Of a stretch of 53,690 bases of DNA, positions 28,462 through 45,343 are shown in pieces. Positions within the stretch are counted from its first letter, which is position 1; the number at the start of each line of letters is the position of its first letter. The stretch is from NCBI GenBank assembly GCA_003553485.1, contig PWEJ01000148.1:1-53690 (forward strand), written 5' to 3'. The position numbers and the translations under genes are program-made. The DNA comes from Halanaerobiaceae bacterium (GTDB taxonomy: Bacteria > Bacillota > Halanaerobiia > Halanaerobiales > Halarsenatibacteraceae). The notes beneath the pieces were generated by a model. That model was not told the DNA's origin and made no database searches. It worked only from the letters and a program-made list of their open reading frames with translations.

Positions 28462-30260
28462 AATATGGAGGCTATCAGGGTGAGCTTTTAGAGATTGATT
28501 TATCCAGCAGAGAGATAAAAGCTCTGCCCTTAAAAGAAAGCTTAATCGAGGAATATGTAGGTGGCAAGGGTTTTGGGGTCAAGCTCTATCAAGATTATAT
28601 TTCTCCCGATACGGAGCCTCTTTCTAAGGAGAATGCCTTATTATTTTTAACAGGCCCTTTAACTGGTACAGTGGCTCCAGCTATGAGAAGCTGTGTGGTG
28701 ACTCGCTCTCCTCTTACTGGAGGCTGGCTGGATTCTTATTTTGGAGGTTATTTTGGTCAGGCCATTAAATATGCTGGTTATGATGGGATAATCATCACTG
28801 GCAGGTCTGAGGAACCGGTATATATATCAATAGACGGTAAAGATGTACAAATTACAATAGCTGACCAGTTAGTTGGAAAATCCACCAGCAAAACCAGAGA
28901 GATAATTCAGGCTAAAATGGGGCAGGACTTTCGAGTTGCTTCCATAGGTCCTGCCGGGGAAAATTTAGTTAAATATAGTCTCATATCCTGTGAAAATAAT
29001 CGCCAGGCAGGAAGAGGAGGAGCCGGAGCGGTGATGGGTAGTAAAAATTTAAAGGCTCTGGCAGTGCGAGGCGATAAGCTCATTGAAGTCAAAGATCAGG
29101 CCGGCTTCATGGAGGCAGTATCCCAGGCCAATAAGGAGTTAGCCTCTTCTGAAGATGTGAAGAATTTCCGGGAATATGGTACTCCTTCATCAATACCCTT
29201 TGCCCAGGAGATAGGTATGCTACCCACTAAGAATTATCAACAGGGCCAATTTGCTCAGGCGGAAAATTTAACCAGTAAACCCCAGGCTGATTTATTTTGG
29301 CAGCGAGATTTAGCCTGTAGTGGCTGCCCCATAGCCTGTGGCAAGATTGGCAGGGTCTTTAAAGGTAAATATCAGGGTTTAATAACTGATACTGTGGAGT
29401 ATGAAACTTTGGGTTTATTAGGGTCTAATTTAGAAATTGGTAATATTCAGGATATTACCCGGGCTGCTATTTTATGTGATGAGTTAGGGCTAGATAGTAT
29501 ATCTGCTGGAGGAGCGATAGGATTTTTGTTGGAAGCCAACCAAAGAGGTTTATATGATGCTGCAGAATTACAGGAAATGGACTTTGGTAAGGGAGAATCT
29601 TTATTTGCCCTTTTAGAAGCGGCTGCTCATCGTCAGGGAGAAACAGGCGAGATGCTGGCTGAAGGAGTTGCCCGGATGGCTTCATTGATTCCCCGGGGAG
29701 AAGAATTTGCGGTCCATATAAAAGGTTTAGAAACACCAGCCTGGCCACCGCGAGGAGCTCCAGGAATGGGGCTGGCTTTAATGACAGCTGACCGCGGGGG
29801 ATGTCATCAAAGAGCTTTTCCCGTTTTACAAGAAGTTGGGGGGGTAAAATGGCGCGGCAAAAAACTTAAGCGTCTGCAAATTGAAGATAAGGCTGCCCTG
29901 GTTGTGGAGCAGCAAAATGAACTAGCAGCTTTAGATACACTGATAAAATGCGATTTTGGCACCTATGGAATTGAAAATGAAACCTATCAGAAGCTACTAA
30001 CCACTGCCACCGGGCTGGATGTAACGGAAAAATCCTGGCAGAGCTTAGGGGCAAAGATCTGGGATGAAGCCCGGCGGATTAATATCCAGCATGGTTTTAC
30101 CACTCAAGATGATCTGCTGCCAGCTAGATTTAGCGAAGAGCCTCTGCCTGATGGACCAGCTAAGGGCCATAAAATTACCCGGGAAGAGCAACAGATAATG
30201 CTGCAAGAATATTATCAACTTAGAGGCTGGGATGAAAAAGGCAGGCCTCCGGATTGTTAA
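28458..30260 (+). CDS. aor: Tungsten-type aldehyde:ferredoxin oxidoreductase, large subunit
   Basis: The 600-residue enzyme oxidises aldehydes to carboxylic acids with a bis-pterin tungsten (rarely molybdenum) centre. It has the N-terminal AOR domain (YVGGKGFGVKLYQDY, FLTGPLTGT, RSPLTGGWLDSYFGG, AGRGGAGAVMGSKNLKA) and cluster cysteines C287, C290 and C294 in ACSGCPIACGK. The fourth cysteine is C498 in IKCDFGTYG. The pterin-binding EYETLGLLGSN and CDELGLDSISAGG motifs are present. It is complete and coupled to the ferredoxin subunit. Given the glycerate kinase and alcohol dehydrogenase upstream, glyceraldehyde is a candidate substrate; general amino-acid-derived aldehydes are equally possible. 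Confidence 0.94.
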   Translation: MKYGGYQGELLEIDLSSREIKALPLKESLIEEYVGGKGFGVKLYQDYISPDTEPLSKENALLFLTGPLTGTVAPAMRSCVVTRSPLTGGWLDSYFGGYFGQAIKYAGYDGIIITGRSEEPVYISIDGKDVQITIADQLVGKSTSKTREIIQAKMGQDFRVASIGPAGENLVKYSLISCENNRQAGRGGAGAVMGSKNLKALAVRGDKLIEVKDQAGFMEAVSQANKELASSEDVKNFREYGTPSSIPFAQEIGMLPTKNYQQGQFAQAENLTSKPQADLFWQRDLACSGCPIACGKIGRVFKGKYQGLITDTVEYETLGLLGSNLEIGNIQDITRAAILCDELGLDSISAGGAIGFLLEANQRGLYDAAELQEMDFGKGESLFALLEAAAHRQGETGEMLAEGVARMASLIPRGEEFAVHIKGLETPAWPPRGAPGMGLALMTADRGGCHQRAFPVLQEVGGVKWRGKKLKRLQIEDKAALVVEQQNELAALDTLIKCDFGTYGIENETYQKLLTTATGLDVTEKSWQSLGAKIWDEARRINIQHGFTTQDDLLPARFSEEPLPDGPAKGHKITREEQQIMLQEYYQLRGWDEKGRPPDC

Positions 30261-30278: not shown

Positions 30279-30911
30279 CTAGGAATCAATTTCAATTACC
30301 ACAGATTTCTTGCCAACTTTCTGGTCAACAGAGGTGTTCCTCCCTTTAAAACCCTTATGGAGAGGGGCATTTACTGTTGACCTGTTGTTTTTCTCGCCCC
30401 TCTCTGGAAGAGAAAAAAATTTTCGGGCTTCAATTCTGTTATCAAAATATTTCAGCCAGCTACGGGGCTCTCGGTAAATTATCTTACCCTTAGAGCCCAT
30501 AGTTTTTACAATTTGAGCCAGACACTGCTGGCCAGGTCTGACATTGTAGGATACCCAGACGGCATCGAAATTAGAATAATCGATTTCCTGACAGAGCCCC
30601 GAGCTGAACTTTATCAGATTAGTCAAATTATAATACTGGGCAAGTTCCCGGGCTCTTATTAATGCTCTTTCATCGCAATCAATAGCCTCCACCTCAAAGC
30701 CCCGCCGGGCCAGCTCGAAAGCGGTAAAGGGAAAAGGCCCACAGCCCAGATGAGCAACTTTATCTCCTGAAGAGACAGCAGCCAATTTAATCTCGTTATT
30801 GATCATTTCTCCATAAAAAAATTTGCCATATTTTTCTCCCAGAGCAGGTTTAGCACTGACTAACATCTCTATTTTTTTTACAAAATTAGAGATAATTTTT
30901 TCTGCTATCAT
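30279..30911 (-). CDS. Nicotianamine-synthase-like SAM-dependent protein
   Basis: The 210-residue protein has a class I SAM-binding fold with HLGCGPFPFTAFELARRG followed by VEAIDCDERALIRARELA. This closely follows the GSGPLP-T...D-D...A..LA pattern of nicotianamine synthase relatives, which transfer aminobutyrate (not methyl) from SAM. An IIYREPRSW strand sits where NAS proteins have a VxRSA motif. The C-terminal ~45 residues are basic and poorly conserved. It follows the CbiX-like gene by about 30 bases, and both lie behind a cobalamin riboswitch. Hence a role in cobalt chelation or metallophore synthesis is suggested. A plain methyltransferase is the alternative. Confidence 0.65.
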   Translation of the reverse strand: MIAEKIISNFVKKIEMLVSAKPALGEKYGKFFYGEMINNEIKLAAVSSGDKVAHLGCGPFPFTAFELARRGFEVEAIDCDERALIRARELAQYYNLTNLIKFSSGLCQEIDYSNFDAVWVSYNVRPGQQCLAQIVKTMGSKGKIIYREPRSWLKYFDNRIEARKFFSLPERGEKNNRSTVNAPLHKGFKGRNTSVDQKVGKKSVVIEIDS

Positions 30912-30943
30912 AATTTCTCAAACTCCTTTGCCAGCCTTGAGGT

Positions 30944-31321
30944 TTATTTTACTTCTTCGAATTTTTCTATCATAATATCGACTAATTTATCATCGGTTCC
31001 TAAAATATCGGCCAGGATGAATTCGATTTCTGGGTATTCCTCTTCTAAAGCTGCAATCTGGGCTGGGATATCCTCCTGGACATGGATGCCTGGATAAAGG
31101 AACAGAGGTAGAATAACAATTTTTTTAATCCCCTGGGAGGCAAAGTGAGAGACCTTCTCCGGCAGGGTCGGACTGGCAAGCTCCATGGCGGCTCCTCCCA
31201 CCCTTTTATCTGCTAATTTATCTGCCAATTTATCAACCAGCTCGTTAAAGACCTCTCTAGCTTTTTCTGCTCTACTGCCATGTCCTAAAACTATTATCCC
31301 CATTTCAGTTTCTTTAGTCAT
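30944..31321 (-). CDS. cbiX: CbiX-like sirohydrochlorin cobaltochelatase (small type)
   Basis: The 125-residue protein matches the short CbiX type, which inserts cobalt (or nickel or iron in relatives) into sirohydrochlorin as a homodimer. It has GIIVLGHGSR with the first metal/catalytic His, ELASPTLPEKV, and LPLFLYPGIHVQEDIP with the second His. ATG at 31321 is chosen because AGGAG lies 8 bases upstream; the in-frame GTG two codons earlier is too close to that site. It is the first gene after the cobalamin riboswitch, which fits anaerobic B12 synthesis, though no other cob/cbi gene is here. Confidence 0.9.
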   Translation of the reverse strand: MTKETEMGIIVLGHGSRAEKAREVFNELVDKLADKLADKRVGGAAMELASPTLPEKVSHFASQGIKKIVILPLFLYPGIHVQEDIPAQIAALEEEYPEIEFILADILGTDDKLVDIMIEKFEEVK

Positions 31322-31347
31322 ATTCACCGCTCCTTTAGTAAGTTTTT

Positions 31348-31386
31348 AAAAATAATAAAACCCACCCTTCGATTACAGGTGGGTGC
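31348..31386 (-). terminator. Expression-platform terminator of the cobalamin riboswitch
   Basis: Minus-strand ACCCACC and GGTGGGT arms (31379-31385 and 31360-31366) are followed by TTTTATTATTTT. It lies between the aptamer and cbiX. Confidence 0.88.
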
Positions 31387-31459
31387 TAAGCAGATAAATT
31401 GTTCCTGTCTATGATCAGTACTTAAAAATTACTCTAAAATCTGCTTTTCTTGCCATCGA

Positions 31460-31655
31460 AGATGTTAGCAGGTTATGACCAGGCAGGTCTCCTGACTTCC
31501 GGTTTTTAATTCAGTCCAGCCTTCCCTGGATATTCGCCTGATTATCCAAGTGGCATTTTAGACTGATATGGCCGGTTACAGTGGCGGGCCCGTCCAGGTT
31601 TTGCACCTGATTCCCTATTCTCCTGCAGCCGTAGCTGCAGGCACCTAATCATAAT
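31460..31655 (-). promoter_or_regulatory. Cobalamin (B12) riboswitch
   Basis: Read on the minus strand, the RNA contains the B12 box AGTCAGGAGACCTGCC (31482-31497). Upstream elements GGGAATCAGGTGCAAAACCTG, CGGGCCCGCCACTGTAACCGG (each core shorter) and GCCACTTGG, with GGGAAGGC, complete the standard core. It should switch off cbiX and the NAS-like gene when cobalamin is plentiful, by letting the terminator form. Confidence 0.96.
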
Positions 31656-31698
31656 CAATATTAAATTTGTTGTATACTATTCATTTTAGGTCTTCTAT

Positions 31699-31727
31699 AT
31701 TATAGCAATAATCAGCTATAATTTCAA
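31699..31727 (-). promoter_or_regulatory. Promoter of the cobalamin riboswitch transcript
   Basis: Minus-strand TTGAAA (31722-31727) and TATAAT (31699-31704) are spaced by 17 bp. Confidence 0.82.
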
Positions 31728-44291: not shown

Positions 44292-45263
44292 ATGTCAAAG
44301 GCTAGGACTACGAGACTCCTGGGTATTTTAATTAAATTATTGGAGCGAGATAAAATTCAAGGAAGGGAACTGGAGAAAGCCTTCGGGGTATCTTCCAGGA
44401 CTATTGTTAGAGATATCAGGCGTTTAAACGAGCTAGGACTGCCAGTCTCTTCTCAACCTGGCAGAGAGGGCGGCTATTATCTCAATGATAGTGCCCATCA
44501 TTCCCTGCAATATCTCTCCATAGATGACCTCTTAGAGATAAAGAGTAAGATAGCAGGGAGAGATAAAGCCCAGGAGCAGGATATTGATACTGCTCTAGCC
44601 CATTTATATGAGGCTTTACCTGCTCCCCAGGGGCAGAATTTACTGGCGGAAGTAGAATTTTCGATATCACCCTCGGGTTTAGAGCGGAGCTTACTGGAAA
44701 AGCTGCAGTGGTTTTATCATTGCAAAGAGAGGGCAAGATTGGTCAAGATTATTTTAGGAGAAAAAGCCAGCCATAAATCAGTCAAAAAAGTATATCCTCT
44801 GGAGATATACTATTATCGACGAGATTGGTTATTATACTGTTTTTTGCCGGAGAAACAGAACTATTCTCACTATCATTTTAGCTCTATTTTATCCTATAAA
44901 CAGCTGGCTCAGGAGATGAATAATCTGGCTAAAAAAGTAAGGGAAGATGATTTCAGGCAGTATTTAAGGCGGAAGGGTATTGATGATTTAACAAAATTGG
45001 TGCTGGAGATTGAGGGGGCACCTCAATATTTAGCTGAACTAAAAGAGAAAGAACTATTTTACCAGGCTGAATACAAAGACAAACTCCAGCCAGGAGAAAA
45101 TAATACTAAGAACAGGTTAATTTTAAAGACCGAACAGCAGGATACAGAAGAATTGCTGCAAATATTTTTGAGTTTTGGCAGCAAACTAAAAATAATTTCT
45201 CCAGATTGGTTGAGTAGCTTGCTGCTACAGGAAGTACAGGAGATTAAAGAACAATATGAATGA
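44292..45263 (+). CDS. YafY-type regulator with HTH and WYL domains
   Basis: The 323-residue protein has an N-terminal winged HTH (TRLLGILIKLLERDKIQGRE, SSRTIVRDIRRLNELGLPV) and a ligand-sensing WYL domain around residues 145-215 (VYPLEIYYYRRDWLLYCFL). A long C-terminal helical WCX-like region follows. Such proteins are one-component repressors or activators. It sits next to a repeat-rich operator region and between the proline racemase and phosphate butyryltransferase genes. The ligand is unknown. Confidence 0.9.
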   Translation: MSKARTTRLLGILIKLLERDKIQGRELEKAFGVSSRTIVRDIRRLNELGLPVSSQPGREGGYYLNDSAHHSLQYLSIDDLLEIKSKIAGRDKAQEQDIDTALAHLYEALPAPQGQNLLAEVEFSISPSGLERSLLEKLQWFYHCKERARLVKIILGEKASHKSVKKVYPLEIYYYRRDWLLYCFLPEKQNYSHYHFSSILSYKQLAQEMNNLAKKVREDDFRQYLRRKGIDDLTKLVLEIEGAPQYLAELKEKELFYQAEYKDKLQPGENNTKNRLILKTEQQDTEELLQIFLSFGSKLKIISPDWLSSLLLQEVQEIKEQYE

Positions 45264-45343
45264 CATTTAAAATTAACAAGTTAAAGTAAATATTTTGCTG
45301 ATGTCAAAAATTTTTAAAAGAAGACTTAGAGGGGGTAATATTA

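Follow-up and report, generated by a model that had tools for sequence, protein, structure and literature searches.

A cobalamin riboswitch ahead of cbiX and a nicotianamine-synthase-like gene in a Halanaerobiaceae bacterium, and the FeoAB setting of the gene family in Bacillota

FeoB is one of the most common transporters of ferrous iron in bacteria. To our knowledge, the known Feo systems are without ligand-making enzymes or lipid genes, and we know neither of a dedicated ligand or lipid that feeds FeoB nor of uptake of metal-ligand complexes by it. The transfer of an aminocarboxypropyl group from SAM to a lipid is carried out by BtaA in betaine-lipid synthesis; this is like the chemistry proposed below, with the differences that BtaA belongs to an unrelated enzyme family and has no linked metal transporter. 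Nicotianamine synthase (NAS) and CntL, the D-histidine aminobutyrate transferase of the staphylopine-type opine metallophores, both make soluble ligands (PMC10248798, PMC7438024), and residues E77 and Y106 are essential in the plant NAS (PMC10248798). The catalytic histidines of the short cobaltochelatase CbiX-S of A. fulgidus are His10 and His74 (PMC7689651). Proteins of PF03706/COG0392 have been proposed as lipid flippases (PMC5898192).

The DNA analysed here (the window) is a stretch of 53,690 nucleotides from a Halanaerobiaceae bacterium. On its minus strand the following features were located, in the order in which they would be transcribed:

31699..31727, minus strand: promoter-like site TTGAAA-17-TATAAT with TG before the -10 (extended -10), 11/12 consensus matches
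31465..31663, minus strand: complete cobalamin riboswitch aptamer (RF00174; 123.9 bits, E 1e-30)
about 31348..31384, minus strand: intrinsic-terminator-like hairpin of 8 pairs with a loop of 9 and a U-rich tail (pattern and fold only)
30944..31321, minus strand: cbiX of the short CbiX-S type, 125 aa (PF01903, 4e-29)
30279..30911, minus strand: NAS-B, a SAM enzyme of the NAS/CntL superfamily, 210 aa (family profile, fold and invariant residues)

The aptamer covered positions 1-189 of the 189 in the model, against a gathering threshold of 31.5 bits, and was one of six cobalamin riboswitches in the genome. Between it and cbiX the 8-pair stem of the hairpin is followed by UUUAUUAUUUUU; the pattern scan had overlooked this hairpin because of its 9-nt loop, and the energy z-score of the whole surrounding stretch (-0.69) was not significant. 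Judged from the sequence, the hairpin is the probable expression platform of the riboswitch. The cbiX frame starts with ATG, and both it and NAS-B are preceded by AAAGGAG. A gap of 32 nt, which is operon spacing, separates the cbiX stop from NAS-B, and only weak promoter-like matches were located near it. The transcription unit comprises cbiX and NAS-B only, since a convergently oriented AOR gene, with its end at 30260, comes directly after NAS-B. A preliminary description of this DNA had placed a full B12 riboswitch over CbiX and a NAS-like gene only, and its coordinates and unit were confirmed. Two other leaders were recorded in the window, both on the minus strand: a fluoride riboswitch (5786-5723, 51.3 bits) upstream of the gene at 5615-3999, and a T-box leader (52573-52341, 103.2 bits) upstream of the gene at 52266-51010.

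The product of cbiX matched PF01903 with 101.5 bits (cut-off 22, E 4e-29), its His14 and His80 match the catalytic-type histidine pair, and it is the sole CbiX of the genome. The remainder of the anaerobic route lies on another contig (L060), behind a separate cobalamin riboswitch, and comprises cobO, cbiA, cbiP, cbiB, cobD and cbiC, D, E, T, L, F and G; the gene names were read from the sequences, that of CobO being confirmed by Pfam. In the relatives G004 and G046 cbiX comes immediately after a riboswitch and precedes cbiC, D, E, T, L, F and G, and in G055 cbiX is within a riboswitch-preceded cluster in which cobalt-transporter-type genes stand before the same cbi series. The unit in the window is thus like other B12-riboswitch-controlled cbi operons, such as those of G004 and G046, in that cbiX follows the riboswitch; it differs in that NAS-B is the second gene, the remaining cbi genes having a different location and a riboswitch of their own. 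From these layouts it appears that the riboswitch-cbiX head was split from the cbi operon in the genome of the window, where it is now followed by a NAS-like gene. No recognisable cobalt transporter of known type was found downstream of any of the six B12 riboswitches in this genome.

Other B12 riboswitches were recorded with different partners. At L059 (G000:C169; record 20820-20600, minus strand) one stands before a periplasmic-binding/FecCD/ATPase ABC transporter and a DUF364 gene (putative heavy-metal chelation). At L058 (G000:C98; record 45083-45283, plus strand) one directly precedes the genes of a VTT-domain membrane protein and a Cys/Met-metabolism PLP enzyme, both unusual members of such a regulon. 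In G004 (L038:1978-3675, plus strand) one precedes an M55 D-aminopeptidase gene and a transporter-like gene.

The NAS-like protein of the window scored 17.3 bits against PF03059, below the Pfam NAS cut-off of 27.1, and single-sequence Pfam and NCBIfam scans gave only sub-threshold matches, with generic methyltransferase models first. A PF03059 search of its own genome gave no match, and a family profile was therefore needed. When genome contigs were scanned with the single protein no relative was returned; with a narrower alignment (A3) relatives were found. A profile of 30 relatives placed MtNAS, the archaeal (thermo)nicotianamine synthase, first (1.6e-21) and CntL next (1.2e-16), with the next methyltransferase family at 1e-8; in this profile the lead of the two over ordinary methyltransferases was about 8 orders of magnitude or more. 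A second profile, built from 30 members that are more distantly related, gave MtNAS at 2.5e-22, CntL at 3e-18 and nothing else below 1e-12. A Foldseek search of the PDB likewise put MtNAS on top, both for the AlphaFold model of the window protein (pLDDT 86) and for that of a distantly related NAS-A (pLDDT 88, TM 0.85). The preliminary description had called the protein a NAS-like SAM enzyme, which agrees with these rankings; ordinary methyltransferases, which it had set against that assignment, came first in the single-sequence scans but not by family profile or fold. Other members exceeded the PF03059 cut-off (L099 51.6, L120 38.5, L115 29.5, L035 28.5 and L031 28.3 bits), while those of L037 (26.3 bits) and L038 (17.8 bits) fell below it. 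Against the CntL equivalog NF033601 the scores were 20-36 bits, with a cut-off of 350.

Seven residues (E15, Y33, E40, G56, G58, P61 and R147 in the numbering of the window protein) were conserved in all 60 aligned proteins. The catalytic Tyr, which is Y107 in MtNAS and Y106 in AtNAS1, corresponds to the invariant Y33, which aligns with Y107. For the catalytic Glu, which is E81 in MtNAS and E84 in CntL, MAFFT alignment to full-length NAS left the position in the family ambiguous; it was settled better by way of a closer CntL, where hhalign and phmmer aligned the family's invariant Glu with E84, the residue changed to Gln in structure 7c9k. MtNAS, the best match by profile and fold, shares with the window protein the catalytic Tyr position and the G-x-G-P-x-P-x-T SAM motif. 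The window protein is about 70-80 residues shorter, and the genomic partner of its family is FeoB; both AlphaFold models have only two helices ahead of the Rossmann domain, in place of the N-terminal domain of full-length NAS. CntL, the second-best profile match, belongs to systems of different composition: the family clusters show no recognised CntM/opine-dehydrogenase gene and no Cnt-type ABC importer, and carry a flippase and FeoAB instead, the recurring genes at the level of the cluster being Feo, flippase and PssA only. Compared by sequence profile and modelled fold, the window protein is a genuine relative of NAS and CntL although it scores below the Pfam cut-off, and it most likely works as an aminobutyrate transferase.

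The neighbours of the family were then compared across 65 loci with family members. Within 4 kb, FeoB was present at 57/65, a PF03706 flippase-like protein at 53/65, FeoA at 51/65 and a PssA-like gene at 19/65, and CbiX at the window alone (1/65). A second collection of 33 named loci, nearly all from Bacillota MAGs and partly from the same genomes as the first set, had FeoB at 31. At E 1e-3, 32 of the 61 relatives searched gave homologues, of which some are weak methyltransferase matches; when 398 genomes of the phylum were searched at E 1e-15, 47 had homologues, the weakest being CntL-type or canonical NAS proteins. The commonest gene orders were FeoA-FeoB-NAS-flippase-PssA and, in the window's own class, NAS-A-flippase-NAS-B-FeoA-FeoB. 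NAS-FeoA fusions occur at L038, which holds the closest orthologue of the window protein, at L031 and at others. With regard to ferrous iron uptake, FeoB of the clusters passes the equivalog TIGR00437 (325.8 bits at L115 and 323.2 at L035, cut-off 315.65), and the FeoA domains are present, also in fusion with NAS-B.

Three further loci were noted. At L105:6466-10727 (G313) a NAS-A-type gene lies outside Feo clusters, beside ZnuA-type metal ABC genes and a gene of the iron-dependent-repressor family. At L145:240-2667 (G164) a gene for a full-length canonical NAS (PF03059, 95 bits) is divergent from that of a CbiM cobalt/nickel transporter, a further link between NAS and cobalt. At L150:2657-2929 (minus strand, G409) the NAS-like frame of a FeoB-FeoA-NAS-DUF2325 cluster is shortened and is perhaps a decaying copy. 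The FeoB/FeoA clusters and the neighbours at L105 and L145 point to metal uptake as the setting of the family, whose members more likely serve in general to supply divalent metal by way of FeoB.

A general tie of the family gene to B12 riboswitches or CbiX was tested and rejected; among the 65 loci CbiX was near the gene only in the window, and the riboswitch at L038 faces the D-aminopeptidase gene and not the family gene. The idea that B12 control and NAS form a general system, as had been suggested at the outset, was not borne out by the neighbourhood survey, in which the usual partners were FeoA/FeoB and the flippase-like protein. In the window's own genome, contig C111 (L037) carries NAS-A, flippase, FeoA and FeoB together; the genome has a single FeoB of this type, and its sole NAS-B is that of the window. 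The closest relative, G004, has a C111-like cluster without NAS-B; its NAS-B, 63% identical to the window protein and not behind a riboswitch, adjoins a second FeoB. No second FeoB and no NAS-B-fused FeoA domain of the G004 type were found in the genome of the window. If NAS-B is needed for the ligand and is under B12 control, ligand synthesis would track B12 shortage, which would be sensible for cobalt. As to the proposal of a cobalt carrier or ligand for cobalamin synthesis, the B12 riboswitch/cbiX unit behind it is real, and the cobalt role of the window NAS-B, drawn from one genome, is possible.

Several observations bear on a lipid. The cluster gene of about 200 aa encodes a CDP-alcohol phosphatidyltransferase; its best match is pssA (TIGR00473), at 95.7 bits with a cut-off of 107, and the residues D-x2-D-G-x2-A-R-x8-G-x3-D-x3-D are invariant. 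In the 19 genomes with this gene in the cluster, such as G119 (L115), it is the sole strong PssA match, and a genome-wide search for phosphatidylserine decarboxylase was negative in all 19, so that phosphatidylserine would there be no intermediate to phosphatidylethanolamine by the usual route. These genomes thus present a phosphatidylserine-type lipid without a known use. At L099:6850-8565 (plus strand, G355) a single frame joins an MprF-type flippase (PF03706, 145 bits) to a NAS domain of NAS-B type that exceeds the PF03059 cut-off (51.6 bits). MprF and the PF03706 proteins have the same membrane domain, and this fusion of flippase and head-group-type enzyme has the MprF layout; it differs in its enzyme domain, which is of NAS type, whereas that of MprF is a lysyl-transferase.

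The NAS-B proteins form a single clade (support 87) that includes the window protein, placed next to L038. NAS-B occurs in 23 of the 24 NAS genomes without PssA, the exception being an incomplete genome, and in one (G315) of the 36 with PssA; the window's own class is mostly without PssA. Fisher's test gave 2e-14 for this complementarity with kinship ignored, and the tree needs only 3-4 changes to account for it. Strict mutual exclusion was rejected on account of G315 and of the small number of changes, and the complementarity is taken as a suggestive correlation in the sequences. On its simplest reading, PssA and NAS-B would be alternative makers of the first amino-acid head group, which NAS-A would extend.

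The following sequence of events is proposed. At low B12 the riboswitch would be unbound and transcription would read through to cbiX and NAS-B. CbiX would insert Co(II) into sirohydrochlorin for the anaerobic B12 route of the genome. NAS-B would move the 3-amino-3-carboxypropyl (aminobutyrate) group of SAM to an acceptor, with release of MTA, and so build a metal ligand, in cooperation with the NAS-A, MprF-type flippase, FeoA and FeoB of the other contig. Across Bacillota the chelator made by such a module would supply divalent metal to FeoB. The flippase, the phosphatidylserine-synthase-like enzyme, the negative search for the decarboxylase and the flippase-NAS fusion suggest that, rather than diffusing freely, this chelator may be a phospholipid head group that bears aminobutyrate units and is moved to the outer leaflet. 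With NAS-B and hence ligand synthesis under B12 control, the module would be used here for cobalt at B12 shortage. This explanation as a whole, of B12-switched ligand synthesis by NAS-B and a lipid chelator feeding FeoB, with cobalt here, is advanced tentatively, as a possibility that falls somewhat short of probable. Its extended form is more speculative and must be called unlikely as it stands: that many Bacillota make a membrane-anchored metallophore, from phosphatidylserine of PssA or, in genomes lacking PssA, an aminobutyrate head group of NAS-B, extended by NAS-A with aminobutyrate of SAM and flipped outward by the MprF-type flippase to capture divalent metal and hand it to FeoB, and that in the window it serves cobalt and is switched by B12 shortage.

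The B12 link may equally have arisen by an accident of rearrangement, in which NAS-B, once beside its own FeoB, landed behind a cut-off riboswitch-cbiX head; NAS-B would then still serve the general (ferrous iron) supply, its B12 control being tolerated and not selected. We regard this as quite possible, since the cbi operons of G004 and G046 begin with riboswitch and cbiX and G055 likewise has its cbiX in a cobalt/cbi cluster behind a riboswitch, since cbiX is beside the family gene in no other genome examined (65 loci), and since the 63% identical NAS-B of G004 is with FeoB and without a riboswitch. However, the window NAS-B retains every invariant residue and its own Shine-Dalgarno sequence, and the promoter-like matches in the gap are weak. 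Moreover, with no other NAS-B here its activity would drop at plentiful B12, which would be costly if it were for iron. This accident concerns the B12 link only. The nature of the ligand only is at issue in another alternative, in which a soluble metallophore of nicotianamine or opine type would leave the cell, perhaps through the flippase-like protein, its metal would be taken up by FeoB and PssA would be a mere neighbour; the judgements given for these two and for the preferred explanation therefore overlap. The soluble products of the characterised relatives NAS and CntL and the metal-uptake context of the clusters argue for such a molecule. We nevertheless consider it rather unlikely, as PssA lies in the same gene run at 19 loci with the decarboxylase nowhere in the genome, as the proposed lipid flippases include one fused to NAS-B, and as FeoB would have to accept metal-ligand complexes.

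The lead of generic methyltransferase models in the single-sequence scans, together with PssA and flippase neighbours that fit a lipid substrate, would also suit PmtA-like enzymes that methylate the head group of phosphatidylserine or of another lipid, with FeoB/FeoA needing that lipid environment only. Profile and fold comparisons rank NAS and CntL first, and the NAS catalytic Tyr and Glu are invariant, which makes this improbable. The position behind cbiX raised, finally, a corrin-pathway or corrinoid-protein methyltransferase (CbiT- or CpaM-like). A weak match to CpaM (NF043040) and a CbiT structure among the fold matches pointed that way, but the CpaM match had 28 bits with a cut-off of 180, a CbiT-like gene is already in the main cbi operon, and the orthologues adjoin FeoB and not cbi genes; this identity was rejected on score and genomic context and is regarded as highly improbable.

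Relative to the B12 link, the larger finding is the conserved FeoAB-NAS-flippase(-PssA) module of Bacillota, which is apparently undescribed: in the open-access literature no description was found of such a cluster, nor of nicotianamine together with a cobalamin riboswitch. A published survey of NAS-type metallophores in bacteria searched by way of CntM (PMC7438024), and NAS-FeoB clusters would have gone unseen by it. If the explanation preferred here is true, the FeoAB-NAS-flippase-PS-synthase-like cluster would give FeoB a chelator and would give the phosphatidylserine-type lipids of bacteria a role in metal supply. The window would be a natural instance of NAS-type chemistry placed under B12, and through B12 perhaps linked to cobalt, and it makes that question testable.
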